A model generated the notes under the pieces. That model ran no database searches and was not told the DNA's origin. It was given only the letters and a program-made list of their open reading frames with translations. This document shows positions 8,892 to 53,354 of a stretch of DNA of 64,000 nucleotides, piece after piece; the first letter of the stretch is position 1; every line of letters starts with the position of its first letter. A program made the translations under genes and the position numbers. The DNA comes from Kineobactrum salinum (GTDB lineage: Bacteria > Pseudomonadota > Gammaproteobacteria > Pseudomonadales > Halieaceae): assembly GCF_010669285.1 (NCBI RefSeq), contig NZ_CP048711.1, positions 372,001 through 436,000 of the forward strand, given 5' to 3'.

Positions 8892-9775
8892 CTATTCCTG
8901 AATTGTCTCTGCAACCGCCTGCAAGCCACCACTGCCCAACAGGGGATCCAGCCGATCCCTGATCAGCGCCGCAGCTTCACTGGTAAGCACAACCAGGGTG
9001 ATACGCCGGTTGACTGCGTCGCCCGGATCACTGCCTGGCGCAGGTACGCGATCACCCATGCCGGTGACACGCAACAGTTTCTCATCACCAAAGCCACCCG
9101 CGACCAGCTCTCTGCGGGAGGCATTGGCACGATCAGCGGACAATTCCCAGTTGCTGTACCCCCTGAAACCACTGGCATAGGGCACGCTGTCCGTGTGACC
9201 GCTGATACTGAGGCGGTTGGGCATCTCATTCAGCAGCGGAGCCAGTAAGTGCAGCAGGTCTCGCATGTACACCGCCACCTGATCACTGCCGGTCTGGAAC
9301 ATGGGCCGCTCGTCGGTATCCACCAACTGGATACGCAAGCCGTAGGGGTCATGTCAAACCGCATCTGGCCGCGCAGGTCACGCAGTTCCGGATCGGCCTG
9401 GATGGCCGTCTCGATCCGGCGCTGCAAATCGATGAACTGGCGTTGTATATCGGTAGCGCGGGTCGACATACGCATCTCTGTGCGCTGCCGCTCGCCGTCA
9501 ACATGAGTGGGATCCGCGCCGCCCCCGGGTATCACACTGGTACTGGACATGCTCCTGTCGCCCCCGGCCAATGCCACTGACAGGGGAGTGCGGAAATACT
9601 CCGCCACACTTTTCAATTCCTGTGGGCTTGCACTGGAAAGGATCCACAGCACCAAAAACAGCGCCATCAGCGCCGTCATGAAATCCGCCAGCGCAATTTT
9701 CCAGCTGCCGCCGTGGCCATGCACTATCACCTTGCGGCGCCGGCGAATAACGATGGGACGCGCGTTCTCGCTCAT
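8892..9775 (-). CDS. motB: Stator protein MotB (one frameshift)
   Basis: MotB anchors the proton-channel stator to peptidoglycan. The N-terminus has the single TM with the ion-carrying Asp (ALADFMTALMALFLVLW); the C-terminal OmpA-like domain has ISGHTDSVPY, NWELSADRA and DAVNRRITLVV. The two halves are in different frames. At the G run 9345-9348 one base appears missing, so that MRFDMTP should continue as YGLRIQLVDTDERP. Restoring it gives 294 aa, the normal size. The start overlaps the motA stop (ATGA). Confidence 0.93.
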
Positions 9776-10647
9776 GCGGCTTGCGATTCCGGTGACCGGG
9801 TGGCACGCACATGCTCCTCCAGTTCGGAGAAACTCGGCCGTTCAGCGGTATGCAGAGCCTTGCGGCCAAATTCCACCGCCAGCTGCGGCGCATAGCCGTT
9901 GAGCGTTGCCAGCAAGGTTACCCGGATGCACTGCAGCATCTTGACGGCCTCGTGAACCTGGCGATCAATCCTGCTGGCCAGAGGATTGACGAAGCCGTAG
10001 GCCAGCAGAATGCCGAGGAAGGTACCTACCAGGGCATGGGCAATCATCAGCCCCATCTGCTCCACCCCGCCATCGACCGTACTGAGCGCGCGAACCACCC
10101 CCAGCACCGCGGCAACAATGCCGAAGGCCGGCAGCGCATCGCCCACCTTGCCCAGGGCATCGGCAGGTATATGGGCTTCGTGCTCGAAGGCCTCGATCTC
10201 ATGCAGCATCAACTCATCGATTTCCATCGGATCCATGCCGCCACTGACCATCAGCCGCAGATAGTCTCTGAGAAACTCCATGATCATCGGATCCGCGAGA
10301 ATGCGGGGATACTGAGTGAAAATGGCGCTCTCTTCGGGGTTTTCGACGTCCCGCTCAATCGCCAGCATGCCACCGCGACGCATCTTCGCCAACAGCGTGT
10401 ACTGCAATGCCATCAGCTCCATGTAGATTTCCCGGTCGTAGCCGTTGGTACGTTTGAGCTTGCCCGCGGTCTTCAGCGTCGCCTTGATGGCCTTGCCGTT
10501 GTTCGAGGCAATGAACGCGCCCAGCGCGGCGCCACAGATCATCACTATTTCCGTGGGCTGCACCAGCGGCCCCAGGCTTCCACCGGCGAGCACGAAGCCG
10601 CCGAAAACCGAAACAGCGACTATCAGGAATCCTAAGGGTATCAACAC
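9772..10647 (-). CDS. motA: Stator protein MotA
   Basis: MotA forms the ion channel ring that works on FliG. The 291-aa protein has four membrane segments and the MRRGG...ERDVENPEES cytoplasmic loop, whose charged residues contact FliG. The conserved Pro in PAFGIVAAVLGVV and a C-terminal TM (GTFLGILLAYGFVNP) are present. The start is GTG at 10647 with AAGGAT upstream. A sigma28 promoter match lies 43-69 bp upstream, so motAB-cheAW is likely FliA-dependent. A second, different stator pair is encoded at 23.8-25.3 kb. Confidence 0.95.
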   Translation of the reverse strand: MLIPLGFLIVAVSVFGGFVLAGGSLGPLVQPTEIVMICGAALGAFIASNNGKAIKATLKTAGKLKRTNGYDREIYMELMALQYTLLAKMRRGGMLAIERDVENPEESAIFTQYPRILADPMIMEFLRDYLRLMVSGGMDPMEIDELMLHEIEAFEHEAHIPADALGKVGDALPAFGIVAAVLGVVRALSTVDGGVEQMGLMIAHALVGTFLGILLAYGFVNPLASRIDRQVHEAVKMLQCIRVTLLATLNGYAPQLAVEFGRKALHTAERPSFSELEEHVRATRSPESQAA

Positions 10648-10815: not shown

Positions 10816-11370
10816 TCAGGCGCTACGGCAATTCGCAAGCTGTCGGTCCAGCACCGACTGGGCGGTCTTGCCCGCCCGCGAGGGCGGCTGGCAGATACCG
10901 CAGACATAATCCTTGTTCGGAGTGTGTGCATGCATCACGAAATGGCCGCTGCAGCGGGTGCATTCAGACATCTCGAACATCCTGCTCTCGAAGAAGCGCA
11001 CCAGGGTCCAGGCCCGGGTCAACCCCAGCACCGGCTCCAGGTCCTCCAGCGCGAGCTGTTCCAGGTACAGCCGGTAGGCTTTGGTGAACCCCTCCATCCG
11101 CCCGCACTGAAGTACTTCGGTAAGCTGCCGATAATAGTTGTAGAACAGGGACGAATGAATATTGGGCTGCCAGGTGATAAACCAGTCGGTCGAGAACGGC
11201 AGCATGCCCTTGGGCGGGGACATGCCGCGCACTTCCTTGTAGAGCCGAATCAGGCGTCCCCTGCTCAGGTCGGTCTCGGTTTCCAGTACCTGCAGCCGCG
11301 CCCCGAGCTCGATCAGCTCGATGGCCAACTGTACCTGTTGCATCTCCGCAACCAGACTTTTACCGGCCAT
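10816..11370 (-). CDS. flhC: Flagellar master regulator subunit FlhC
   Basis: FlhC with FlhD forms the FlhD4C2 activator that turns on class-2 flagellar genes with sigma70. The 184-aa protein matches FlhC throughout. The four-Cys zinc site is visible as CTRCSGHF and CGICQPP near the C-terminus, and the DNA-contacting body has SRGRLIRLYKEVRGMSPPKG. The start lies 3 bp after the flhD stop, so they form one operon. Confidence 0.96.
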   Translation of the reverse strand: MAGKSLVAEMQQVQLAIELIELGARLQVLETETDLSRGRLIRLYKEVRGMSPPKGMLPFSTDWFITWQPNIHSSLFYNYYRQLTEVLQCGRMEGFTKAYRLYLEQLALEDLEPVLGLTRAWTLVRFFESRMFEMSECTRCSGHFVMHAHTPNKDYVCGICQPPSRAGKTAQSVLDRQLANCRSA

Positions 11371-11373
11371 GAG

Positions 11374-11712
11374 TTATCGAGCCTCCGCTGCGGGCCGCGA
11401 GGTAATCGGCGTGACTGTGGCCATCAGCAGCGAGGCGTGGATCCCGCCCATGCCCTGATCGCGTTCATTGTCGACCAGCTGTGAAACCTGTTCGGAGTCT
11501 TCAAGACAGAGACGAAACAGGAACTGGTTGTTGCGCGCCAGCTGGCCCAGCTGCCTGGTCGAGAGGGACAGCAGTTGTGAGCCCATCGCATCGTCGATCT
11601 TCAGACGCATCAGCGCCATTGTGTAATCCGCTTTCAGCAAACGCTGGGCGACCAGCAGGTAGGTCAGGTTAAGGTCCTGGATCTCCGCCAGATCCTCATT
11701 GAAGTTACTCAT
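11374..11712 (-). CDS. flhD: Flagellar master regulator subunit FlhD
   Basis: FlhD is the partner of FlhC; it does not bind DNA strongly alone but stabilises the complex. The 112-aa protein has the typical helical body: EIQDLNLTYLLVAQRLL, DYTMALMRLKID and LARNNQFLFRLCL. The AUG is preceded by an A-rich AAAAAGGG ribosome site. A short upstream frame ends across this start. The roughly 400-nt leader carries a predicted c-di-GMP riboswitch, so expression of the whole flagellar hierarchy may be set here. Confidence 0.96.
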   Translation of the reverse strand: MSNFNEDLAEIQDLNLTYLLVAQRLLKADYTMALMRLKIDDAMGSQLLSLSTRQLGQLARNNQFLFRLCLEDSEQVSQLVDNERDQGMGGIHASLLMATVTPITSRPAAEAR

Positions 11713-11887: not shown

Positions 11888-11965
11888 TATCTTCCTGGTT
11901 CCGCTCGAGCCGGCAGCTGATGAACGGGGGCGCGACAAACAGAGACGCGGGCGGGTGGCCCGGTA

Positions 11966-12056
11966 TGATATGCTGCGGTTCCTCGATCATGGGATGCTGG
12001 CACCCTTTAGACAGGTAACTTTGCGTCACCGCCTTTCGGCGGTTTTGCCACTTCAA
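11966..12056 (-). promoter_or_regulatory. c-di-GMP-I (GEMM) riboswitch in the flhDC leader
   Basis: On the minus strand the aptamer core runs from 12051 to 11970. In order it has GGCAAAACC, a 6-bp hairpin ACCGCC/GGCGGU closed by a GAAA tetraloop, GUGACGCAAAG, then UUACCUGUCUAAAGG. A third stem closes with UCGAGGAACCGC. A flanking P1 is formed by UGCU and AGCA together with GUGG and CCGC. GAAA loop, GACGCAAAG and the CUAA receptor-like strand in this order are the hallmarks of the Vc2/GEMM-I class. The core ends about 258 nt before the flhD AUG. No clear U-tract terminator follows, so the output could be translational, Rho-dependent or through the leader frame. Confidence 0.82.
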
Positions 12057-12126
12057 GCACCCAACAGGCAGCAATCCCGCGAGGTGCCAAACAGCGCTTC
12101 CACTCCTGAATCGCTGTATGGGAACC

Positions 12127-12155
12127 TTTGTACCGGGACCAGGAGTAGCTGACAA
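12127..12155 (-). promoter_or_regulatory. flhDp: Sigma70-like promoter of flhDC
   Basis: Minus strand: TTGTCA (12155-12150), 17-bp spacer, TACAAA (12132-12127), predicting a start near 12120, about 65 nt before the riboswitch core. The -35 has one mismatch and the -10 two. Its spacing to the CRP-like site supports it. Confidence 0.5.
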
Positions 12156-12172
12156 CGAAGCTATGGCGCAAA

Positions 12173-12188
12173 CGTGAGACCGGTCACA
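12173..12188. promoter_or_regulatory. CRP/Vfr-type operator before flhDC
   Basis: TGTGA-CCGGTC-TCACG on the minus strand matches the TGTGA-N6-TCACA CRP palindrome in 9 of 10 positions. Its centre lies about 60-61 bp upstream of the start predicted from the adjacent promoter, the class-I activator position. CRP activates flhDC in Escherichia coli, which fits. Confidence 0.55.
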
Positions 12189-12209: not shown

Positions 12210-12512
12210 TCAAAGCCGTTCGGACTCCTCGGCAGCAGCAGTGTCGCCAAGCTCGCCGACCCAGACCAGCAGTTCGGCGATGACCTGGTACAACTTCGGG
12301 GGAATCTGTTCGTCGATGTCCAGCTGCATCAACAGGGCAACCAGTTCCGGGGCGCCGTGGACATAGATACCCTGGCGTCCTGCCTCCGCGATGATACGGT
12401 CTGCCAGTTCACCGTAGCCGCGGGCGACGATGCGGGGTGCCGCCTCACCCTCGCCATAGGCCAGAGCCACCGCCCGCTTGCGGGGCCGGTCAGTGCTGTC
12501 ATGATCGTTCAT
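12210..12512 (-). CDS. FlhB C-terminal-domain-like protein (FhlB/FlhX type)
   Basis: A 100-aa protein resembling only the cytoplasmic C-terminal domain of FlhB: AVALAYGEGEAAPRIVARGYGELADRII and the later PELVALLMQLDIDEQIPPKLYQVIAELLVWV. It lacks membrane helices and the NPTH cleavage motif. Such stand-alone domains can substitute for, or modulate, cleaved FlhB in substrate switching. Its start overlaps the stop of the FliK-like gene (ATGA), so the two are probably co-translated; this pairing supports a hook-length/export-switch role. Confidence 0.8.
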   Translation of the reverse strand: MNDHDSTDRPRKRAVALAYGEGEAAPRIVARGYGELADRIIAEAGRQGIYVHGAPELVALLMQLDIDEQIPPKLYQVIAELLVWVGELGDTAAAEESERL

Positions 12513-16341: not shown

Positions 16342-16511
16342 GCCAGGCATCAGCAATTTCCCGATAATCACCATAACCATGGAACTAAAAGCTTATATTT
16401 CAAATAGTTAAATCCCATTCTTTATGTCAAATATAAGAATTACCACGATATATCTGCCCCCTACCTCGCTCAGCGACCGGGGAGCCGGGGTTATTTATCG
16501 GGACTGCATCC

Positions 16512-18208
16512 CTAATAGAACAGTGCCCCCGGGCGCGCCGTTGCAAGGATCGCTTGTGGCTCTCCCAGACGCAGCAAGGTGCCCTCTTCCACCAGCTCAC
16601 CCAGGTTGTCAGGGGGCCTTCGGATGCGGCCAGCTGTACCCGGGCAGGCCGGCCTTCACTGTCCAGCCGCTGCACCCAGGCCAGCTCTCCTGCGGGATAG
16701 CGCAGCAGTGTGCCCACCGGCAACTCGCCAAAATGTTCGAAGTAGCGCGTCACCCAGCGGGCGTCAAACTGCTGCGGACGCTGTTCAAGAAAATCCCTGA
16801 TCCGGTCCACCGTCATGCCCGGGCCGGCGGGCCCGGGACGACTCAGGCGGTCCGCGATCTTCACTACAGCGGCGAGGCGGGTCAGTTCGTGCAGCTGATC
16901 GCCCTGCCACTGGCGGGGATAGCCGCTGCCGTCCAGGCGCTCATTGGCGCCTTCAACCACTGCCTGGATAACGGTGACCGACAGCCAGTGGCAGGCTTCC
17001 AGCTGCGGCAGGATCAGCTCGACATGAGCCTGGTATTGCCGCTCTTGATCCGCACTGCGATCAGGGTTCTGTAACAGCTCCACCGGCAACAACGCCTTGC
17101 CGAGATCGTGCACCAGGGCACTCGCTGCCAGTGCCTTCTGCACTTCCCGCGGCATCTTGAAGGCGCGACCAATGTCGACCAGCCGCACCGCAACGCACAG
17201 ACTGTGCTGCACCAGTTGCGGTTCGCGGCCCAGGCACTGCAACGCAAACAGCACGGCCTCGCGATCCTCCTCCAGCAGTGCCAGCAGCCGGTCAGCCGCA
17301 TGCGAGAGCGGCACGGAACCCACCGGCCGGCCATCGCGCAACTCCAGAACCTGCTGGTCCAGGAAACCGGCTACCCGGGCAAGCCGCCGCGTCATCGGCG
17401 TGGCATAGCGCAGGGCGTGACGCAGCCCCACCGTCGGCGCCGAGCTGTTGGCCTGGAACAATTGCGAGGGCGCCAGCGAGGTCGCCTCGACACTGGCACT
17501 GCGGGCGGCCTCGCGCTCGATCTCACGGACAAAAAACCACAGCTGACGGTCCTGGTCCACGCTGCGCGGCTCAAAGGCGAAGCCCACCGCCAATACCTCG
17601 CGTTCAGCATCGGTCATATGGTGCCGCGGCGTTGCCCTGATCACGAATCGCAGACCGTTGGGAAAACAGAATTCCAGTTCCAGTGGCGACTGGTTCAGCG
17701 CCACCAGTTCACTCATGTTGGGCAGCACCTCGACCAGGCAGCCGTTCATGGACAGGTCGCGCAAATCGCCCTGGAAGGTAGCCGGGTTATTCAGGTCCCG
17801 CAGCAGCACACCGACCTCCATCCCCAGCCGCGGTGTCGCCCGGTAGTCGTCACGACGCTGAAACAGATGCAGCTCTGTGGGATAATTGCAATGGCATTGC
17901 ATCCGCCCCTCGACCTCGTCGAATTGACTGACGGTCAGCATGGGGGTTCGCACCATGCCTTCGAGGCCCTGCCCCAGCAGGCGCAGTCCCGTTCCCCGCT
18001 GCAGCGGCGCGACCACTTCACGGATAGCGGACACATCCAGCACCAGCGCCTCTCCCGGTATTGTCTTTGCCAGCACCACCGGCAGCGGCTCGCTACCGGG
18101 CTTGTCCAACACCAGCGAGGCAGCCCCCGGCTGGGTCAGCTTTTCCAGCATCTCTTCTATTTCAAGCGGATTGCCGATGGTGATAGCACCACCCTCTTGC
18201 TCTATCAT
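16512..18208 (-). CDS. YcgR-PilZ protein fused to an HD-GYP-like domain (one frameshift near the 3' end)
   Basis: Predicted c-di-GMP-responsive motor protein. Residues 1-110 resemble the YcgR N-terminal domain. PilZ follows with the RxxxR-type motif RRDDYR (118-123) and DLSMNG (151-156). An HD-GYP-like domain covers about 325-500, with HDLGK at 367-371 and ANERLDGSGYP at 421-431. Canonical HD-GYP has HHE at the latter site; AN replaces both histidines, so phosphodiesterase activity is doubtful. At the G run 16612-16616 one base seems missing. Restoring it gives a C-terminus DNLGELVEEGTLLRL and a TAG at 16512 (about 565 aa); unrepaired, translation runs to 16427. A sigma28 promoter precedes it. 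Confidence 0.82.
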
Positions 18209-18901: not shown

Positions 18902-20095
18902 ATGTCAGTAATCAACACCAACATCACCGCTATGATCGGTCAGCAGAATCTGGGCAAATCCCAGAGCGCCCTGCAGACCTCCATGGAAAGGCTGTCGTCT
19001 GGGCTGCGTATCAACAGCGCCAAAGACGATGCCGCCGGCCAGGCAATCGCCAACCGGATGACTGCCCAGATCACTGGTCTGTCACAGGCCCAGCGCAACG
19101 CCAACGACGGTATTTCTGTCGCGCAGACCGCTGAAGGCGCCCTGAACCAGGTCAACGACAACCTGCAGCGCATTCGTGAGCTGGCGGTTCAATCCCAGAA
19201 TGGCACCAACTCCACGGATGACCTGAAATCCATCCAGGCTGAAATCAACCAGCGCCTGACCGAAATCGACCGCATCTCCGAGCAGACCGACTTCAACGGC
19301 GTGAAAGTCCTGGCCGATGACCAGACCCTGAGCATCCAGGTTGGCGCCAACGACGGCGAGCGCATCGACATCTCCCTGAGCGAAATCACCTCCAGCACCC
19401 TGAACCTGGGCAGCTTCAACGTCAACGGCCCGCAGGGTGCGCTGACTGCTCAGACTGGCGGCACCACTGCCGAAATGCAGGATGCCTACGGTGACACCAC
19501 TGCAATCGCCGACACCACCGTGGCTGAGAGCACCGGCGGTGACCTGGCGGCACGCCTGGGCGTTGCGGCTGGCAGCGTTGTCTTCACCGGCACCGCGCAG
19601 ACCGACGAGGCTGGCAACTTCTACGCCGAAGTGACCATCACAGCCAACAGTGTTGCCGAATCCAACTCGCTGAAAGCGCTTGGCTTCGACCTGGATAACG
19701 GCGCCTCCGGCACCTTCTACATCGCTGTTGAGCCCAGCGAAGCGGCCACCGCCGGCACCACCGCCGCGTTCAGCCTGGACACCGCCAACCTGAGCCTGTC
19801 TGACCTCAGCGCCGGCCGCACCTCCAACCCGATGGCAGCCCTGGACTCAGCGCTGGAATCGGTAGACGAGCTGCGCTCCGACCTGGGTGCGATCCAGAAC
19901 CGCTTCGAGTCTGCGATCGACAACCTGCAGACCAACCAGACCAACCTGTCAGCAGCCCGCTCGCGGATTGAAGACGCCGACTACGCTGTCGAAGTCTCCA
20001 ACATGACCCGCGCGCAGATCCTGCAGCAGGCTGGCACCTCGGTTCTGGCCCAGGCCAACCAGGTTCCGCAGAACGTCCTGTCACTGCTGGGCTAA
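18902..20095 (+). CDS. fliC: Flagellin
   Basis: Filament subunit, 397 aa. The N-terminal D0/D1 is typical: MSVINTNITAMIGQQNL, SGLRINSAKDDAAGQAIANR and the NDGISVAQTAEGAL region. The C-terminal D1/D0 has ARSRIEDADYAVEVSNMTRAQI in pieces and ends in VPQNVLSLLG. The central variable region (about 170-300) is short and Thr/Ser-rich, giving possible O-glycosylation sites. The ribosome site is AAAGGAC before the ATG. Only one flagellin gene is in the window. The next gene is an O-GlcNAc-transferase-like enzyme. Confidence 0.97.
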   Translation: MSVINTNITAMIGQQNLGKSQSALQTSMERLSSGLRINSAKDDAAGQAIANRMTAQITGLSQAQRNANDGISVAQTAEGALNQVNDNLQRIRELAVQSQNGTNSTDDLKSIQAEINQRLTEIDRISEQTDFNGVKVLADDQTLSIQVGANDGERIDISLSEITSSTLNLGSFNVNGPQGALTAQTGGTTAEMQDAYGDTTAIADTTVAESTGGDLAARLGVAAGSVVFTGTAQTDEAGNFYAEVTITANSVAESNSLKALGFDLDNGASGTFYIAVEPSEAATAGTTAAFSLDTANLSLSDLSAGRTSNPMAALDSALESVDELRSDLGAIQNRFESAIDNLQTNQTNLSAARSRIEDADYAVEVSNMTRAQILQQAGTSVLAQANQVPQNVLSLLG

Positions 20096-20221: not shown

Positions 20222-23200
20222 ATGGCGAAACAGCTGCGCAAGACGGGCGTTGCCCGACACTCCACCAGAACCGTCTCCCGCAAGCTGCGAGAGCAGCTCA
20301 TCGGCCACTACCAGGCCCGTGCCTGGGATCGGGCCTCCGCGCTGGCAGTGCAATTGACTCGCGACTATCCCGGGGATGCCTTCGCCTGGAAATCACTGGG
20401 CTCGGTGCTGCTGGAATCCGGTGACTGGGTGCGGTCGCTGGAGCCGCTGGACCAGGCCCTGCAGCTGGATCCGCAAGACCCCGAACTGCACAATACGCGG
20501 GCCCAGGCCCTGTACCGGCTGGGCCGGGCGGTGGAGGCTGTTGATCACCTGGAAACGGCGCTGAAGCTGAAGCCGCGCCTGAAGCAGGCGCGGCTGCTGC
20601 TGATCAAGCTGTACAATGACGCCGGCGGTTTCAACGAAGCGCTGGCCCATGTCGCAACCGCCGAACAGCACTTCCCCGGCGACGATGAAGTGCTTGCCCG
20701 CAAGGCCCATGCCCTGGCCAAGCTGACCCGCTTCGGCGAAAGTATCCAGACCCACGAGGAACTGGTCGCCAATTTCCCCGACGACCCAGTGCACCTGTCC
20801 AACCTGGCCAGCGCCTACCGCAGCGTCGGTCGCTTTGAAGAGGCAGAAGCGCAGTACCTGCGCGCATTGTCGCTCGCTCCCCAGCAGGACAAGACGTATT
20901 CCAATTACCTGATGGCGATGCACTACAATCCGGCCCACTCAGCGCAAGCCCTGTTCGATGCCCATCGGCAGTGGCAGGACAGGTTCGCGCCCGAGCAGGC
21001 GCCGGTCCGGCCCCGGCCGGCGGACCGCTCCCCCGGCCGGCGCCTGCGGGTCGGCATGATTTCAGCCGGTTTCCGGATCCACCCGGTGGGGCAGATGATT
21101 ACCTCAGCGGTAGAGCAGCTGCCCAGGGACCAGTTCGAACTGTACGCTTACACCATGAGTGACCAGGTCGATGTACTGACCACCCGCATGCAGGACCGGG
21201 TGGACCGCTGGCAGTCGGTGACTCACCTGGCCGAGGACCGGCTGGCACAGCTGATCCGCAACGACGGTATCGATATCCTGCTGGACCTGTGCGGTCACAC
21301 CGAAGGTTGCCGGTTGCGGGCGATAGCCCAGGAGCCCGCGCCACTGCAGGTGAAGTGGGTGGGGGGCCTGATCAACACCACTGGCCTTAGGGCAATGGAC
21401 TACCTGATTTCCGATGCGGTGGAAACACCACCGGGTGCGGATGAATTCTACATTGAAAAATTGATCCGCATGCCGGATGACTATATCTGCTATATGCCCC
21501 GCGGCAACGCCCCCGATGTGGCTCCGCCACCCGCCGCCAGCAATGGAGTCATCACCTTCGGCTGCTTCAATAATCCCTCCAAGATCAACGAAATACTGCT
21601 GGATCAGTGGGCACAGATCCTGCTTCAACTGCCGGGCAGCCAGCTGTTTCTGAAGGGCATGCAGTTCGACAGCGAGGAGTTCCGGGAACGCACATTGTCC
21701 GTGCTGGCACAGCTTGGGATCGACCGCGGCCGCGTAATCCTGGAGGGGCACTCAGACCACTACCAGTTGTTGCAGGCCTACAACCGGGTGGACATCGCGC
21801 TGGATTCCTGGCCCTATTCCGGTGGCCTCACCACCTGCGAGGCACTGCTGATGGGGGTGCCGGTCATTACCCTGCCGGGCCCCAGTTTCGCCGGACGCCA
21901 CTCCGCCAGTCACCTGACCCACGCCGGGCTGCCGGAGCTGGTGGTGGACAGCTGGGAGCGCTACCGTGAACTGGCACTGGATCTGGCATCCAGCCTCGAC
22001 AACCTCAGCGTCATCCGCGCTCAACTGCGGCAGCAACTCACCCGCTCCCCGGTATGTGATTACCGGCGCTTCGGTGCCAACCTGGCCGCGGCCCTGCGCG
22101 CCATCTGGCGGCGCTACTGCGAAGACAAGGCACCGGCTGCACTGGACTTCGACCATCAGGGCCAGCTCTGGTTTGAAGGCGACTCCGTGCCGACGGCAAG
22201 CGCAGCTGTCGCGCCGGCGACTGCCTCCGTCAGCGACTTCCAGTGGCAACTCGACGGTCGAGTCGTGGTGCTGGACAATGGCGCCAAACTGTTCCGGGAC
22301 CGTGGCTTCGCCGCATTGCGCCAGCTCAATGCCTTTACCGTCATCGGCTTTGATCCCGCGAGCCAGGTGGAACAGCCAGAACAGTACAGTGACGAGGACC
22401 AGCTGCAACTGTTCCCGCATGCAGTGCTGGGCGACGGCCAGCCGACCATGCTGCATGCCTGCCTGGACCCGGAGCTGAGCAGTACGCTGCCACCACTGGC
22501 GGATACCGCGCTGCCAGCGGCACTGCGCCAGGGCGCCCGTGTGTTGACCCAACTGCCGATCAGCACACTCCGTCTGGACAGCATTGAAGGCCTGGATGGT
22601 CTCGACTGGTTGATCCTGGATCAACGCAGTGACAACAGCACGATATTGCAACATGGCGCGCAGTCACTGCAGGATACTCTGCTGCTGCAGGTCGGCGTCG
22701 CCTTTCAGCCCACCCACCGGGGCCAGACCACACTGGCGGAGCTCAACGACAAGGTCGCGGCGCTCGGCTTCCGCTTTTACCGCTTCAACGACATGCGCTA
22801 TCACAGCCACTGGCCTGCTGATGCAGCGCCGCAGCCTGATGTAGGCACCGAACTGGCCAGCGCCGACGTGTTGTACCTGCCCTCCCCCGAGCGCATGGCG
22901 ACACTCAGCGACAGCCAGCGCCTGAAGCTGGCCTTCCTGCTGCACGCCGTATTCGATATCCGCGATCTCAGCTACAGTCTGCTCAATGACCAGGATCCGG
23001 AACTGGCCGCGAGCTATCTGCGGCAGATGCAGGTTGCCGACACGAAGCCGGGCAACCCCGCGGCGGTGGCTTCGACTTTTACGGAACCCGCGCCGGAGAC
23101 ACTGGAACTGCCCGACAAACCCTTCATGACAGACGCCGAGGCCGGCCTGTTCCGGCGCTATCTGGAACAGGCGCAGGAATATTTTGAATACGGCTCGGGT

Positions 23201-23680
23201 GGCTCAACAGTCTGGGCTGTGGAACAGGGTCTGGTCGTGCGGGGCGTGGAAAGTGACCAGCAATGGGTCACGGCGCTGCAGGCGCGTCTGGGCGAGCGCT
23301 GCCAGGTGACCGCCGTGGACATTGGCCCCACCCGCGAATGGGGCTTTCCGACCTCGCTGGATCATCAGGACCAGTTCCCGGCCTACAGCCTGGCGATCGA
23401 GCAGCATGCCAGGGCTTTCGACCTGATCCTGGTGGATGGCCGGTTCCGGGTGGCGAGCACCCTCGCCGCAATCCGGCACCTGCGCACCCACCACAGCCAT
23501 TGCGAAGACGCCAGGATATTCATTCACGATTTCTGGAACCGGACCCAGTATCACGCTGTGCTGGAATTCCTCGACACGGTGGAGCAGTGCGAAAGCGCGG
23601 GCGTGTTCCAGCTGCGCAAGGACCTGGATCCGGTGCGCCTCGATGCGCTCTGGCAACAGTATGCAAAAGTACCCATCTAA
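20222..23680 (+). CDS. TPR/OGT (SPINDLY-type) glycosyltransferase fused to two methyltransferase-like domains
   Basis: Predicted protein O-glycosyltransferase, 1152 aa, cytoplasmic. TPR repeats occupy about 25-225. The GT41/OGT-type catalytic region spans about 236-640, with LLDLCGHTEGCRL, VKWVGGLINTTGLRAMDYL, FGCFNNPSKI and ALDSWPYSGGLTTCEALL. An FkbM-like region lies at about 675-930 (DGLDWLILDQ, TLLLQVGVAFQP). The C-terminal part, about 960-1152, looks like a class-I SAM methyltransferase, with YFEYGSGGSTVW near 987, then VRGVESD and FDLILVDGRF. Placement directly after fliC and before stator genes suggests flagellin glycosylation plus modification of the sugar; substrate is inferred. A weak TAAAAT -10-like box is at 20193-20198. 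Confidence 0.85.
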   Translation: MAKQLRKTGVARHSTRTVSRKLREQLIGHYQARAWDRASALAVQLTRDYPGDAFAWKSLGSVLLESGDWVRSLEPLDQALQLDPQDPELHNTRAQALYRLGRAVEAVDHLETALKLKPRLKQARLLLIKLYNDAGGFNEALAHVATAEQHFPGDDEVLARKAHALAKLTRFGESIQTHEELVANFPDDPVHLSNLASAYRSVGRFEEAEAQYLRALSLAPQQDKTYSNYLMAMHYNPAHSAQALFDAHRQWQDRFAPEQAPVRPRPADRSPGRRLRVGMISAGFRIHPVGQMITSAVEQLPRDQFELYAYTMSDQVDVLTTRMQDRVDRWQSVTHLAEDRLAQLIRNDGIDILLDLCGHTEGCRLRAIAQEPAPLQVKWVGGLINTTGLRAMDYLISDAVETPPGADEFYIEKLIRMPDDYICYMPRGNAPDVAPPPAASNGVITFGCFNNPSKINEILLDQWAQILLQLPGSQLFLKGMQFDSEEFRERTLSVLAQLGIDRGRVILEGHSDHYQLLQAYNRVDIALDSWPYSGGLTTCEALLMGVPVITLPGPSFAGRHSASHLTHAGLPELVVDSWERYRELALDLASSLDNLSVIRAQLRQQLTRSPVCDYRRFGANLAAALRAIWRRYCEDKAPAALDFDHQGQLWFEGDSVPTASAAVAPATASVSDFQWQLDGRVVVLDNGAKLFRDRGFAALRQLNAFTVIGFDPASQVEQPEQYSDEDQLQLFPHAVLGDGQPTMLHACLDPELSSTLPPLADTALPAALRQGARVLTQLPISTLRLDSIEGLDGLDWLILDQRSDNSTILQHGAQSLQDTLLLQVGVAFQPTHRGQTTLAELNDKVAALGFRFYRFNDMRYHSHWPADAAPQPDVGTELASADVLYLPSPERMATLSDSQRLKLAFLLHAVFDIRDLSYSLLNDQDPELAASYLRQMQVADTKPGNPAAVASTFTEPAPETLELPDKPFMTDAEAGLFRRYLEQAQEYFEYGSGGSTVWAVEQGLVVRGVESDQQWVTALQARLGERCQVTAVDIGPTREWGFPTSLDHQDQFPAYSLAIEQHARAFDLILVDGRFRVASTLAAIRHLRTHHSHCEDARIFIHDFWNRTQYHAVLEFLDTVEQCESAGVFQLRKDLDPVRLDALWQQYAKVPI

Positions 23681-23735: not shown

Positions 23736-23768
23736 TCCTGTTAACTGCTATTTTTGTGTGGATGCGCG

Positions 23769-24590
23769 ATGAATCCCTCGACGATCATCGGCATGGTGAG
23801 CAGCGTTTTCCTGCTGGCTACTGTGTTGCTGTTTACTGCCGAATCACCCCTGAGTTTTGTCAATCTGCCGGGCCTGGCCATTGTTGTCACCGGCACGCTG
23901 GCGGCGACATTCATCAGCTATCCGATGGCCGAAGTACTGCATGTGGTGCGGCTGGTGGCCATCGTGTTCCGGCGGGAGAACATCTACACGGGTGACGATA
24001 TCCGCGAACTGGTGGAACTGTCCAGACTCTGGTTCAAGGGCAAGGCCCGGGAGGTGGAAAAGGCCCTGGAAAACACACGCAACCCCTTCCTGCGCACCGG
24101 TATCGAGCTGGTCATCGCCAACACCCGGGAAGAGGAAATTCTGGAGTTGTTGCGCTGGCGCATCGCCCGCCTGAAGGCGCGGGAGCATGCCGAGGCCCAG
24201 ATCTTCCGCACCATGGCGGTGTATGCCCCCGCCTTTGGCATGATCGGCACACTGGTGGGACTGGTAAACATGCTGGCCGTGATGGACCGCGGCAGCATGC
24301 ATATCATTGGCCCGCACATGGCGGTCGCACTGCTGACCACCTTCTATGGGATCCTGCTCGCCAATGTGCTGTTCAAGCCGATCGCAGTCAAGCTGGAACG
24401 GCGTACGGAAAAACGCCTGATCGCGATGAACATGGTGCTGGAAGGGGTTTCGCTGATGTCCCGGCGCAGGTCACCGTCGTTTATCGAGGCCACCATGCAC
24501 TCCTTCATGACCACCTATGAAGACGAGATTCGCGACGCCCCGCCTTCGTCGCGCGAGGACGAGATACCCGCGTCCCAGGTCCAAGGCTAG
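23769..24590 (+). CDS. Second stator channel protein, MotA/PomA family
   Basis: A 273-aa MotA/TolQ/ExbB-superfamily protein, distinct from the MotA at 10 kb. It has an N-terminal TM (IIGMVSSVFLLATVLLFTA), TM2 after VNLPGLAIVVTGTLAATFISYP, the cytoplasmic loop and the paired TMs APAFGMIGTLVGLVNML and HMAVALLTTFYGILLANVLF. This layout resembles PomA/MotC. Start is the ATG at 23769; an upstream GTG at 23754 is less likely. It is followed 1 nt later by motB2. Ion specificity (H+ or Na+) cannot be read with confidence. Confidence 0.9.
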   Translation: MNPSTIIGMVSSVFLLATVLLFTAESPLSFVNLPGLAIVVTGTLAATFISYPMAEVLHVVRLVAIVFRRENIYTGDDIRELVELSRLWFKGKAREVEKALENTRNPFLRTGIELVIANTREEEILELLRWRIARLKAREHAEAQIFRTMAVYAPAFGMIGTLVGLVNMLAVMDRGSMHIIGPHMAVALLTTFYGILLANVLFKPIAVKLERRTEKRLIAMNMVLEGVSLMSRRRSPSFIEATMHSFMTTYEDEIRDAPPSSREDEIPASQVQG

Positions 24591-24591
24591 C

Positions 24592-25338
24592 ATGCTTCCC
24601 GTCAGCGCTGCCTATGATGACCTGATGCCGGACCCGCCCAGTGGCGAGGAAGAGAGCTGGTTGCTGAGCTATCTGGATGTCCTGACCCTGATCCTGACCC
24701 TGTTTGTTCTGCTGCTGTCATTCGCCAACTGGGAGCCGTTGGGCAGCGACACGCCACCGGTGGAAGCGGCAGTGGCAGAGGCGACTCCCGGGGAAACCGT
24801 AACACTGCCGGTCATCGCGCCGCTGCCGAGTGCCGCTGGCGATGGCTTGCTGCCCGCACACGATGGCCTGCTGACCCAGCAACAGGCCATCGCCGACAAT
24901 ATCGAAACCCTGGCGCTGGAAGGCGTGGAAGCCACGCCCGGACTCGAGGGCATGACACTGCGCATTGCCGACCACCTGTTGTTTGCCAGCGGCCAGGCCA
25001 ATCTGACCGCCGGTGGCAAGAAGGTGATACTCAAGCTGCTGCCGCTGCTGGAGCGCTACCCGGGCGAGATATCGATCGAAGGTCATACCGATGATGTGCC
25101 GATCCAGACCGAGCGCTTCCCCTCCAATTGGGAGCTGGCCTCGGGCCGGGCCATTGCAGTACTTCGATTTCTGGTCGGCAGGGACCTGGCGCCGGAGCGC
25201 CTGCGGGCTATCGGCTACGCCGACATGAGACCGCTGGAGTCCAACGACAGCAGCGCCGGACGCGCCGCCAACCGGCGTGTCGAGCTGGTATTGCGGGAGC
25301 CACCCACGGACCGCAGGAGAGCTGATGCAGGACAATAA
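24592..25338 (+). CDS. Second stator anchor protein, MotB/PomB family
   Basis: A 248-aa partner of the preceding MotA-like protein. One TM carries the ion-binding Asp (WLLSYLDVLTLILTLFVLLL). The C-terminal OmpA-like peptidoglycan-binding domain has FASGQANLTAGGKKV, IEGHTDDVPIQT, NWELASGRA and AANRRVELVL. Reading is continuous, unlike the first motB. The start at 24592 lies 1 nt after the motA2 stop. It is probably transcribed from the sigma28 promoter before motA2. Confidence 0.92.
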   Translation: MLPVSAAYDDLMPDPPSGEEESWLLSYLDVLTLILTLFVLLLSFANWEPLGSDTPPVEAAVAEATPGETVTLPVIAPLPSAAGDGLLPAHDGLLTQQQAIADNIETLALEGVEATPGLEGMTLRIADHLLFASGQANLTAGGKKVILKLLPLLERYPGEISIEGHTDDVPIQTERFPSNWELASGRAIAVLRFLVGRDLAPERLRAIGYADMRPLESNDSSAGRAANRRVELVLREPPTDRRRADAGQ

Positions 25339-51179: not shown

Positions 51180-53354
51180 ATGGAATTTTCGCATTCAAAG
51201 CACGGTCGAGCCGCCGATTGGGGCCATCACCCGCTGCCTGCAGGCGTGATTCTGGCTGTGGATGACGACCCGGGCAGCCTGCTGCTGGCATCTGAATACT
51301 TCGGCTCCGAAGGCTATCGCGTTGACACCGCCCTCAGCGGCGACGACGCGCTGGCGCGCATCGAACAGATCCAGCCGGACATCATTTTGCTGGACATTAT
51401 CATGCCGGGCATGGATGGCTACGAGGTATGCCGCCGTATCAGGCGCATGCCGCATTTCAAGAGCACCCCCATCATCATCCTCACCTCGCTGGACAACAGC
51501 GATGCCGAGCAGCGCGCCTACGATATAGGCGCCTGGGATTTCGTCACCAAACCAATCCACTGGCCGACACTCAAACACCGGGTGCAGTTTGCGCTGCGTG
51601 CATCCCGCGCCATGATGGCGGAAAGATCGGCGGACCGGTTTGCGCGCGTGATCAACCAGTCTCCGAATGAAGTGTTGATATTCGACTCGGTATCGCTGCT
51701 GGTGCTGGACGAGAACGTCAGTGCGCTAAGGAATCTCGGCTACAGCAAGGAAGAACTCAAGAATCTGAGTTTCATCCAGACCCTGCACGGCGAGACACCG
51801 GAGTCGCTGGAATCCATTTTGCAGCAGGTGAGATTGCGCCAGCAGGAAAAATTCAAGTTCCAGATGCAGCGCAAGGACGGTTCAACCTACTCGACCGAGG
51901 CCACGCTACTGTACTCTGTCGAAGAGGATCCCCGAGTCTATGTAGCAATCCTACAGGATACCAGTGAAAAACACCGTATCGAAGAAGAACTTCACCGACT
52001 GTCCTTCTACGATGAATTGACGGGCCTGGCAAACCGGCGCCTGCTCGAAGACCAGGCCGGCCAGTTGTTGTCCATGGCCCAGCGCAATGGCCATCGCTGC
52101 GCGGTCTGCATTCTCGACCTGGACGGGATCCGGCACATCAATGACGCGCTGGGACCCGCGGTCGGAGACCTGTTGCTGCAGCAGATCTCGCAGCGGCTCG
52201 CAGACGTGGTGCGGCGGTTTGACCTGATAGCGCGTGACGAATCGTCCTCTCCGGCAAACTCCGGCACGCAGCTGGCACGTTTTGGCGGCGACGAGTTTGT
52301 GCTGGTACTGAGCGATTTCGACAACCCCCTGGACCCCGCCAAGGCTGCAGAGCGCATTCTGGAGGCCGTGGCCCTGCCCTGCCTGATCCAGGACAATCAA
52401 CTGAGCCTGACCGCGTCCATGGGTATCTCGCTGTACCCGGACGACGGCGACAACCTGGATGAACTGGTGCAGCGCGCCCACACCGCGATGTACGCTGCCA
52501 AGCGCGCCGGCAAAAATCGCTACTCCTTCTTCACCGAAGAAAACAACCGCAATCTGATCAGCCGGATGCAACTGGAAGCGGAGCTGCGGGCCGCTATCGA
52601 GAACGAGGAGTTCGAGCTGCACTACCAGCCCCTGGTCGACACTGCCCTGCAGCGGGTAACCGGCGCGGAATGCCTGCTGCGCTGGCGTCACCCCGACGGC
52701 ATGCGTTTTCCCGACCAGTTTATTCCGCTGGCCGAGGAGACCGGGCTGATCCTGCCGATTGGCGAGTGGGTGCTGCGCGAGACCGTCGCCCAGCTGAACC
52801 GGTGGGCCGACGTTATCGGCGAGGATTTCGGGCTCTCGGTCAATATTTCCAGCTTGCAGATCCGTGAACAGCGTTTTCTGGAACGCACCCGTGAACTGCT
52901 GAAGGCGAACCCGATAGCAGATGGCCACCTGATTTTCGAGCTCACGGAAAGCTCTCTGATAGAAGACGTGGAGGGCACGATCCGGTGGTTGCGCGACATC
53001 GAGAGTCTGGGCATTCGCATTGCGATCGACGACTTCGGTACCGGCTATTCCTCGCTCAACTACCTGGTAAGACTGCCGGTCTATTGCATCAAGATCGACC
53101 GCGTCTTCGTCAACAACGTCGACCACGACCGCGATCAGGCAGCCATCGTCCTGGCCATCTTCCAGATGGCCAGGGCCCTGCGGATCGAGGTAGTCGTCGA
53201 GGGGGTGGAAACCCGGGAGCAGCTCGCTACACTGACCGCCATGGGCTCCTGCGGCATCCAGGGCTGGCTGGTGAGCAAGGCGCTTCCGGTCGACCGTTTC
53301 GAGCAATTTCTGCAGGAATTTCCACCCTCGGAGCTGCCGGCTCCCGCACTCTGA
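51180..53354 (+). CDS. REC-PAS-GGDEF-EAL protein (c-di-GMP turnover)
   Basis: A 724-aa response-regulator-type diguanylate cyclase/phosphodiesterase. REC is about 22-140 (AVDDDPGS, phospho-Asp in ILLDIIMPG, FVTKPIHW). A PAS-like region follows, about 155-275. GGDEF is about 290-460 with intact RFGGDEF. EAL is about 475-715 with ECLLRW for the EALxRW motif (Glu kept), SVNISSLQ, DDFGTGYSS and VEGVET, so EAL activity is likely. No RxxD inhibitory site precedes GGDEF. A 15-residue insert (DESSSPANSGTQLAR) separates DLIAR from FGGDEF. It may tune flagellar or adhesive behaviour with the neighbouring EAL-HDOD gene. Confidence 0.93.
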   Translation: MEFSHSKHGRAADWGHHPLPAGVILAVDDDPGSLLLASEYFGSEGYRVDTALSGDDALARIEQIQPDIILLDIIMPGMDGYEVCRRIRRMPHFKSTPIIILTSLDNSDAEQRAYDIGAWDFVTKPIHWPTLKHRVQFALRASRAMMAERSADRFARVINQSPNEVLIFDSVSLLVLDENVSALRNLGYSKEELKNLSFIQTLHGETPESLESILQQVRLRQQEKFKFQMQRKDGSTYSTEATLLYSVEEDPRVYVAILQDTSEKHRIEEELHRLSFYDELTGLANRRLLEDQAGQLLSMAQRNGHRCAVCILDLDGIRHINDALGPAVGDLLLQQISQRLADVVRRFDLIARDESSSPANSGTQLARFGGDEFVLVLSDFDNPLDPAKAAERILEAVALPCLIQDNQLSLTASMGISLYPDDGDNLDELVQRAHTAMYAAKRAGKNRYSFFTEENNRNLISRMQLEAELRAAIENEEFELHYQPLVDTALQRVTGAECLLRWRHPDGMRFPDQFIPLAEETGLILPIGEWVLRETVAQLNRWADVIGEDFGLSVNISSLQIREQRFLERTRELLKANPIADGHLIFELTESSLIEDVEGTIRWLRDIESLGIRIAIDDFGTGYSSLNYLVRLPVYCIKIDRVFVNNVDHDRDQAAIVLAIFQMARALRIEVVVEGVETREQLATLTAMGSCGIQGWLVSKALPVDRFEQFLQEFPPSELPAPAL

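Follow-up and report, generated by a model that had tools for sequence, protein, structure and literature searches.

The flagellar master operon flhDC in the window (the whole stretch of 64,000 nucleotides that was analysed) is preceded by a c-di-GMP-I (GEMM-I) riboswitch aptamer, which lies on the same strand as flhD and 258 nt before it. This is a standard riboswitch class on a new target, flhDC, found so far in one genome, that of a marine Halieaceae bacterium. The arrangement probably constitutes a class I riboswitch in a leader of about 400 nt, transcribed from near 12120 and lowering flhDC expression at high c-di-GMP. The features on which this reading is built are as follows.

11971-12059, minus strand: c-di-GMP-I (GEMM-I) riboswitch aptamer (RF01051, 65.3 bits), consisting of P2 with a GAAA loop, the joining strand GACGCAAAG and P3 with the CUAA receptor side
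11374-11712, minus strand: flhD, the first gene of the putatively regulated operon (PF05247, 89.9 bits, E 1.5e-25)
10816-11370, minus strand: flhC (PF05280, 282.4 bits; 88% identity to FlhC of Parahaliea mediterranea)

The RF01051 model matches the minus strand from 12059 to 11971 over its full length (model positions 1-87 of 87) with 65.3 bits and an E value of 1.5e-10, the curated cut-off being 35 bits, and in the Rfam scan of the 64-kb window with 4227 families no family except c-di-GMP-I exceeded its cut-off. A GEMM-I aptamer upstream of flhD had been claimed in the preliminary description from the letters alone, and the search that it called for on the minus strand confirms it, flhD being the next gene on that strand; the GAAA-capped P2 and the CUAA-type strand named there are both present in the RF01051 alignment. 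flhD and flhC are the only same-strand genes just downstream of the aptamer. Nothing of weight speaks for the idea that the match is a chance likeness or that the aptamer serves a different gene. This idea, which the E value over 64 kb and 4227 families and the structure test on 28 copies described below effectively refute, was rejected and retains a negligible probability. Therefore, the aptamer in the flhDC leader is, on the strength of its sequence, a strongly supported, genuine class I c-di-GMP riboswitch, far beyond chance.

The genome (4.65 Mb, one contig) contains two GEMM-I copies, the one in the flhDC leader and one at 4170496. The latter (4170496-4170583, 81.7 bits) shares the aptamer class and is similar in sequence to the flhDC-leader copy, but a DUF4402 secreted protein is encoded 102 nt downstream of it, that is, a usual surface-type target. 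Downstream of several other copies in the family, too, are pilin-like, PilZ or secreted-protein genes. In three of the family loci (L035, L036 and L037) the aptamer ends at the apparent start codon of the downstream ORF, which suggests direct control of the translation start there.

As for the ligand, A47 of the Vc2 aptamer stacks between the two guanines of c-di-GMP and C92 pairs with one of them, and in the cGAMP riboswitch (GEMM-Ib) an A replaces G20. In Vc2 of V. cholerae the ligand-contact residues are G20, A47 and C92 (PMC4744006), and their equivalents in the flhDC leader, according to the Rfam alignment, are these.

12049, minus strand: G, equivalent to the ligand contact G20 of Vc2 (contact residues per PMC4744006)
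12022, minus strand: A, equivalent to the ligand contact A47 of Vc2, invariant in 28 family copies
11975, minus strand: C, equivalent to the ligand contact C92 of Vc2, in a column nearly invariant in the 28 copies

In the same alignment the interhelical C-G pair of Vc2 is kept as C 12025 and G 11984. Since 12049 is G instead of A, identity with the cGAMP riboswitch was rejected, and the G20/A rule predicts c-di-GMP and not cGAMP as the ligand that the flhDC-leader aptamer would bind. There are 40 GGDEF matches in the genome, so c-di-GMP is almost surely made in the host. Two c-di-GMP-related proteins are encoded near the putatively regulated genes, a REC-PAS-GGDEF-EAL protein (51180-53351, plus strand) near the edge of the flagellar cluster and a PilZ-HD protein (16430-18208, minus strand) beside fliD.

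As far as its sequence tells, the aptamer before flhDC is intact. Standard pairs occupy 21 of the 22 paired positions of the family model, several with both bases different from the family consensus. The one exception is an A-C mismatch at 12020/11977, a pair that 11 other family copies also fail to form. The structure was tested on an alignment of 28 GEMM-I copies, all from the bacterial family of the host: the Rfam structure gave 93.2% paired cells, compared with 28-45% when one side was slid, and 16 pairs showed a change on both sides. One P3 pair is G-C in 27 copies and a compensated U-A in the flhDC-leader copy alone, which, together with the intactness of the aptamer, argues for selection on structure.

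The proposed course of events is that transcription of flhDC probably starts near 12120, perhaps with the help of CRP, that the aptamer would fold first in the nascent RNA, that c-di-GMP binding would refold the 258 nt leading from the aptamer to flhD, and that flhDC expression would most likely go down at high c-di-GMP (an OFF switch). This would silence the class 2 and class 3 flagellar genes in their entirety, from the top of the hierarchy downwards. The sequence itself shows an intact aptamer upstream of flhDC and on its strand, as well as genes for c-di-GMP enzymes and for CRP; the start site, ligand binding, the switching step and the OFF direction are all parts that we infer. Two putative promoter elements lie upstream of the aptamer.

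12127-12155, minus strand: putative sigma70 promoter TTGTCA-17-TACAAA (9/12 match), with a predicted start near 12120
12173-12188, minus strand: putative CRP site TGTGACCGGTCTCACG (9/10 core bases)

The boxes TTGTCA (12155-12150) and TACAAA (12132-12127) stand 17 bp apart, just as described beforehand, and the leader has no second promoter-like site with a 9/12 match; shuffled sequences, however, give 0.24 such sites per leader, and a stricter promoter scan of the leader, in which this site was rejected, gave none. The start near 12120 likewise agrees with the boxes but depends on a weak consensus match. The near-consensus CRP palindrome said to lie near -61 is present with 9/10 core bases and a centre near -60 if the start is near 12120, and 0.009 such sites are expected in the leader, but over the whole window 2 were found against 1.6 expected. 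Neither the CRP-like site nor the promoter has a counterpart in the aligned relatives. The genome encodes a CRP orthologue 57% identical to that of E. coli, and because cAMP-CRP activates flhDC transcription in E. coli (PMC7247823), the placement near -60 is attractive. Promoter and CRP site are therefore plausible but weak, suggestive features of the sequence and possible rather than established.

The weak promoter match bears on a further explanation, according to which an intact aptamer exerts no control over flhDC, either because the main start lies downstream of it or because the platform is no longer responsive. Such a state has a precedent in Bc1 of Bacillus thuringiensis, which binds c-di-GMP while downstream expression is unchanged (PMC11218506), and it would fit the absence of a clear platform and of conservation of the arrangement. 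Against it, the leader has no better promoter-like site, and the intact aptamer has a compensated pair seen in this copy alone, so we regard it as improbable, the least likely of the explanations that accept a genuine aptamer at flhDC. A riboswitch that lowers flhDC remains the preferred reading, and the length of the leader is no objection to it: in Vc1 of V. cholerae 244 nt separate the start site from the start codon (PMC4744006), so long leaders are normal for class I riboswitches.

Control of flhDC by c-di-GMP is a sound inference, and the leader shows no clear expression platform. The candidate nearest to the aptamer is a terminator-like hairpin.

11948-11962, minus strand: terminator-like hairpin CGGGC-CACCC-GCCCG with the weak tail CGTCTCTGTTTG, immediately downstream of the aptamer (one such hairpin in the scan, against 1.0 in shuffled sequences)

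The leader scan thus revealed no intrinsic terminator after the aptamer better than chance, and the hairpin 11962-11948 is predicted both with and without the aptamer. Enforcing the aptamer shifts the predicted Shine-Dalgarno pairing to a modest extent and not consistently. Neither the intrinsic-terminator nor the Shine-Dalgarno-sequestration model gave a convincing result in the leader. The conserved GACGC strand could instead pair with GCGUC, which closely follows the hairpin, with a predicted probability of 0.0-0.5 depending on transcript length; such antitermination pairing would possibly suit an OFF switch, but the folding predictions for it are not convincing.

The direction of the response cannot be read from the riboswitch class alone, because the two class I riboswitches of V. 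cholerae respond in opposite ways, neither of them via termination (PMC6366702). The same observation speaks for an ON switch in which c-di-GMP raises flhDC, for example where flagella are needed for surface contact. Vc1 is an ON switch (PMC4744006), the terminator of an OFF switch is not visible in the flhDC leader, and other copies in the family are found before genes for pili and surface proteins, for which ON would be expected. High c-di-GMP generally opposes flagellar motility, so an ON switch would run contrary to a general rule and, in addition, to the tested flagellar GEMM-I riboswitch Cd1, and on these two grounds OFF is favoured and ON is considered unlikely, though somewhat less so than an aptamer that does not control flhDC.

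Cd1 (Cdi-1-3), which precedes the flgB operon of C. difficile and is an OFF switch, is of class I like the flhDC-leader riboswitch and governs flagellar genes early in the hierarchy (PMC6366702). It differs in that the operon behind it is structural and includes sigD, and in that it works by transcription termination, whereas the flhDC-leader aptamer stands before the genes of a gammaproteobacterial activator, FlhDC, and no good terminator is seen. Vc1 (gbpA) and Vc2 (tfoY/VC1722) of V. cholerae are likewise gammaproteobacterial class I riboswitches with identical contact residues and no terminator, Vc1 also having a long leader, but they act on a chitin-binding protein and a TfoX-type regulator and not on a flagellar master operon. 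The flhDC operon of E. coli has a long leader and is activated by cAMP-CRP (PMC7247823); its leader, which is under post-transcriptional control by CsrA and McaS (PMC3971182), differs in being controlled by proteins and small RNAs, with no known riboswitch, and the E. coli control genome gave no RF01051 match.

FlhD is present in 7 of the 140 genomes of the host's family, and GEMM-I near flhD is absent from the other six; the one other genome of the host's genus in the set has neither. In a wider scan with a GEMM-I model built from the 28 family copies, about 120 other flhD or flhC loci, nearest relatives included, gave no significant match besides the flhDC leader described here; the set took in flhD loci at family, order and class level together with 80 flhC loci in named genomes, among them Halomonas, Salinicola, Alloalcanivorax, Microbulbifer, Burkholderia and Pandoraea, some class-level ones being only weak FlhD-like matches and a few being duplicates. 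The model recovered 42 of 42 independent GEMM-I loci and is therefore sensitive enough for such a negative scan. No flhDC lay near the GEMM-I loci retrieved from 250 genomes in the family of G176 and from 144 in that of G303, 46 genomes in the family of G316 had no GEMM-I, and a plasmid search with the flhDC leader sequence gave no match. The association occurs in one genome only, which, as regards conservation of the link, counts against the preferred reading.

The Halieaceae flhD leaders L004, L007 and L008, which are devoid of GEMM-I, have in common a short hairpin, TAGGGATCGGGG...CCCCGGCCG, ahead of the ribosome site of flhD. Changes in its stem are compensated and it could be a CsrA/RsmA site; a weaker counterpart is found in the window at about 11770-11746 on the minus strand.

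The preliminary description knew of no GEMM riboswitch established for flhDC, and this statement has held so far: no report of a riboswitch at flhDC was found in the full-text literature searched (titles and opening abstracts), although subscription journals are mostly outside this literature and absence is not proven. In one paper (PMC11124144) flhD and the exact term c-di-GMP-I riboswitch both occur, in separate mentions. In a lineage of the Halieaceae GEMM-I may have been recruited into the flhDC leader, with CRP acting on the promoter, and a single leader would then combine two nucleotide second messengers in the decision on flagellum building; we hold this wider proposal tentatively, at a little under an even chance. 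In FlhDC bacteria c-di-GMP is known to act mainly via the motor, or via protein and small-RNA regulators. A riboswitch on flhDC would, if true, provide a direct route from c-di-GMP to the top of the flagellar hierarchy, and the "settle down" signal would reach the motility programme at its highest level, since flhDC starts all flagellum building. It would be a recent, lineage-limited rewiring.

Many flagellar and chemotaxis genes are found in the window, from cheZ (1060) to flgA (about 47856). Past flhC follow motA, motB and cheA, and on the upstream side of the leader lie a gene for an FlhB-like C-terminal fragment, fliK, fliT and fliS.

12210-12512, minus strand: gene for an FlhB-like C-terminal fragment, situated upstream of the leader (PF01312, 54.5 bits, matching profile positions 258-335 of 335)

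This gene is the immediate upstream neighbour of flhD. Its product, with 100 aa, corresponds to the C-terminal part of FlhB only, and a similar sequence is found upstream of flhD in those leaders of family relatives that were read. Elsewhere in the genome there is a weak FleQ-domain match, so FlhDC may not be the sole high-level flagellar regulator. The cluster has two motA/motB-type stator pairs (8892-10647, minus strand, and 23754-25335, plus strand), and the first motB is apparently broken up into overlapping ORFs (9775-9230 and 9338-8892) whose frames differ, which a frameshift or a sequencing error may explain. Furthermore, right after flagellin (18902-20092) lies a gene for a TPR and family-41 glycosyltransferase protein of 1152 aa (20222-23677, plus strand), a candidate flagellin glycosyltransferase.
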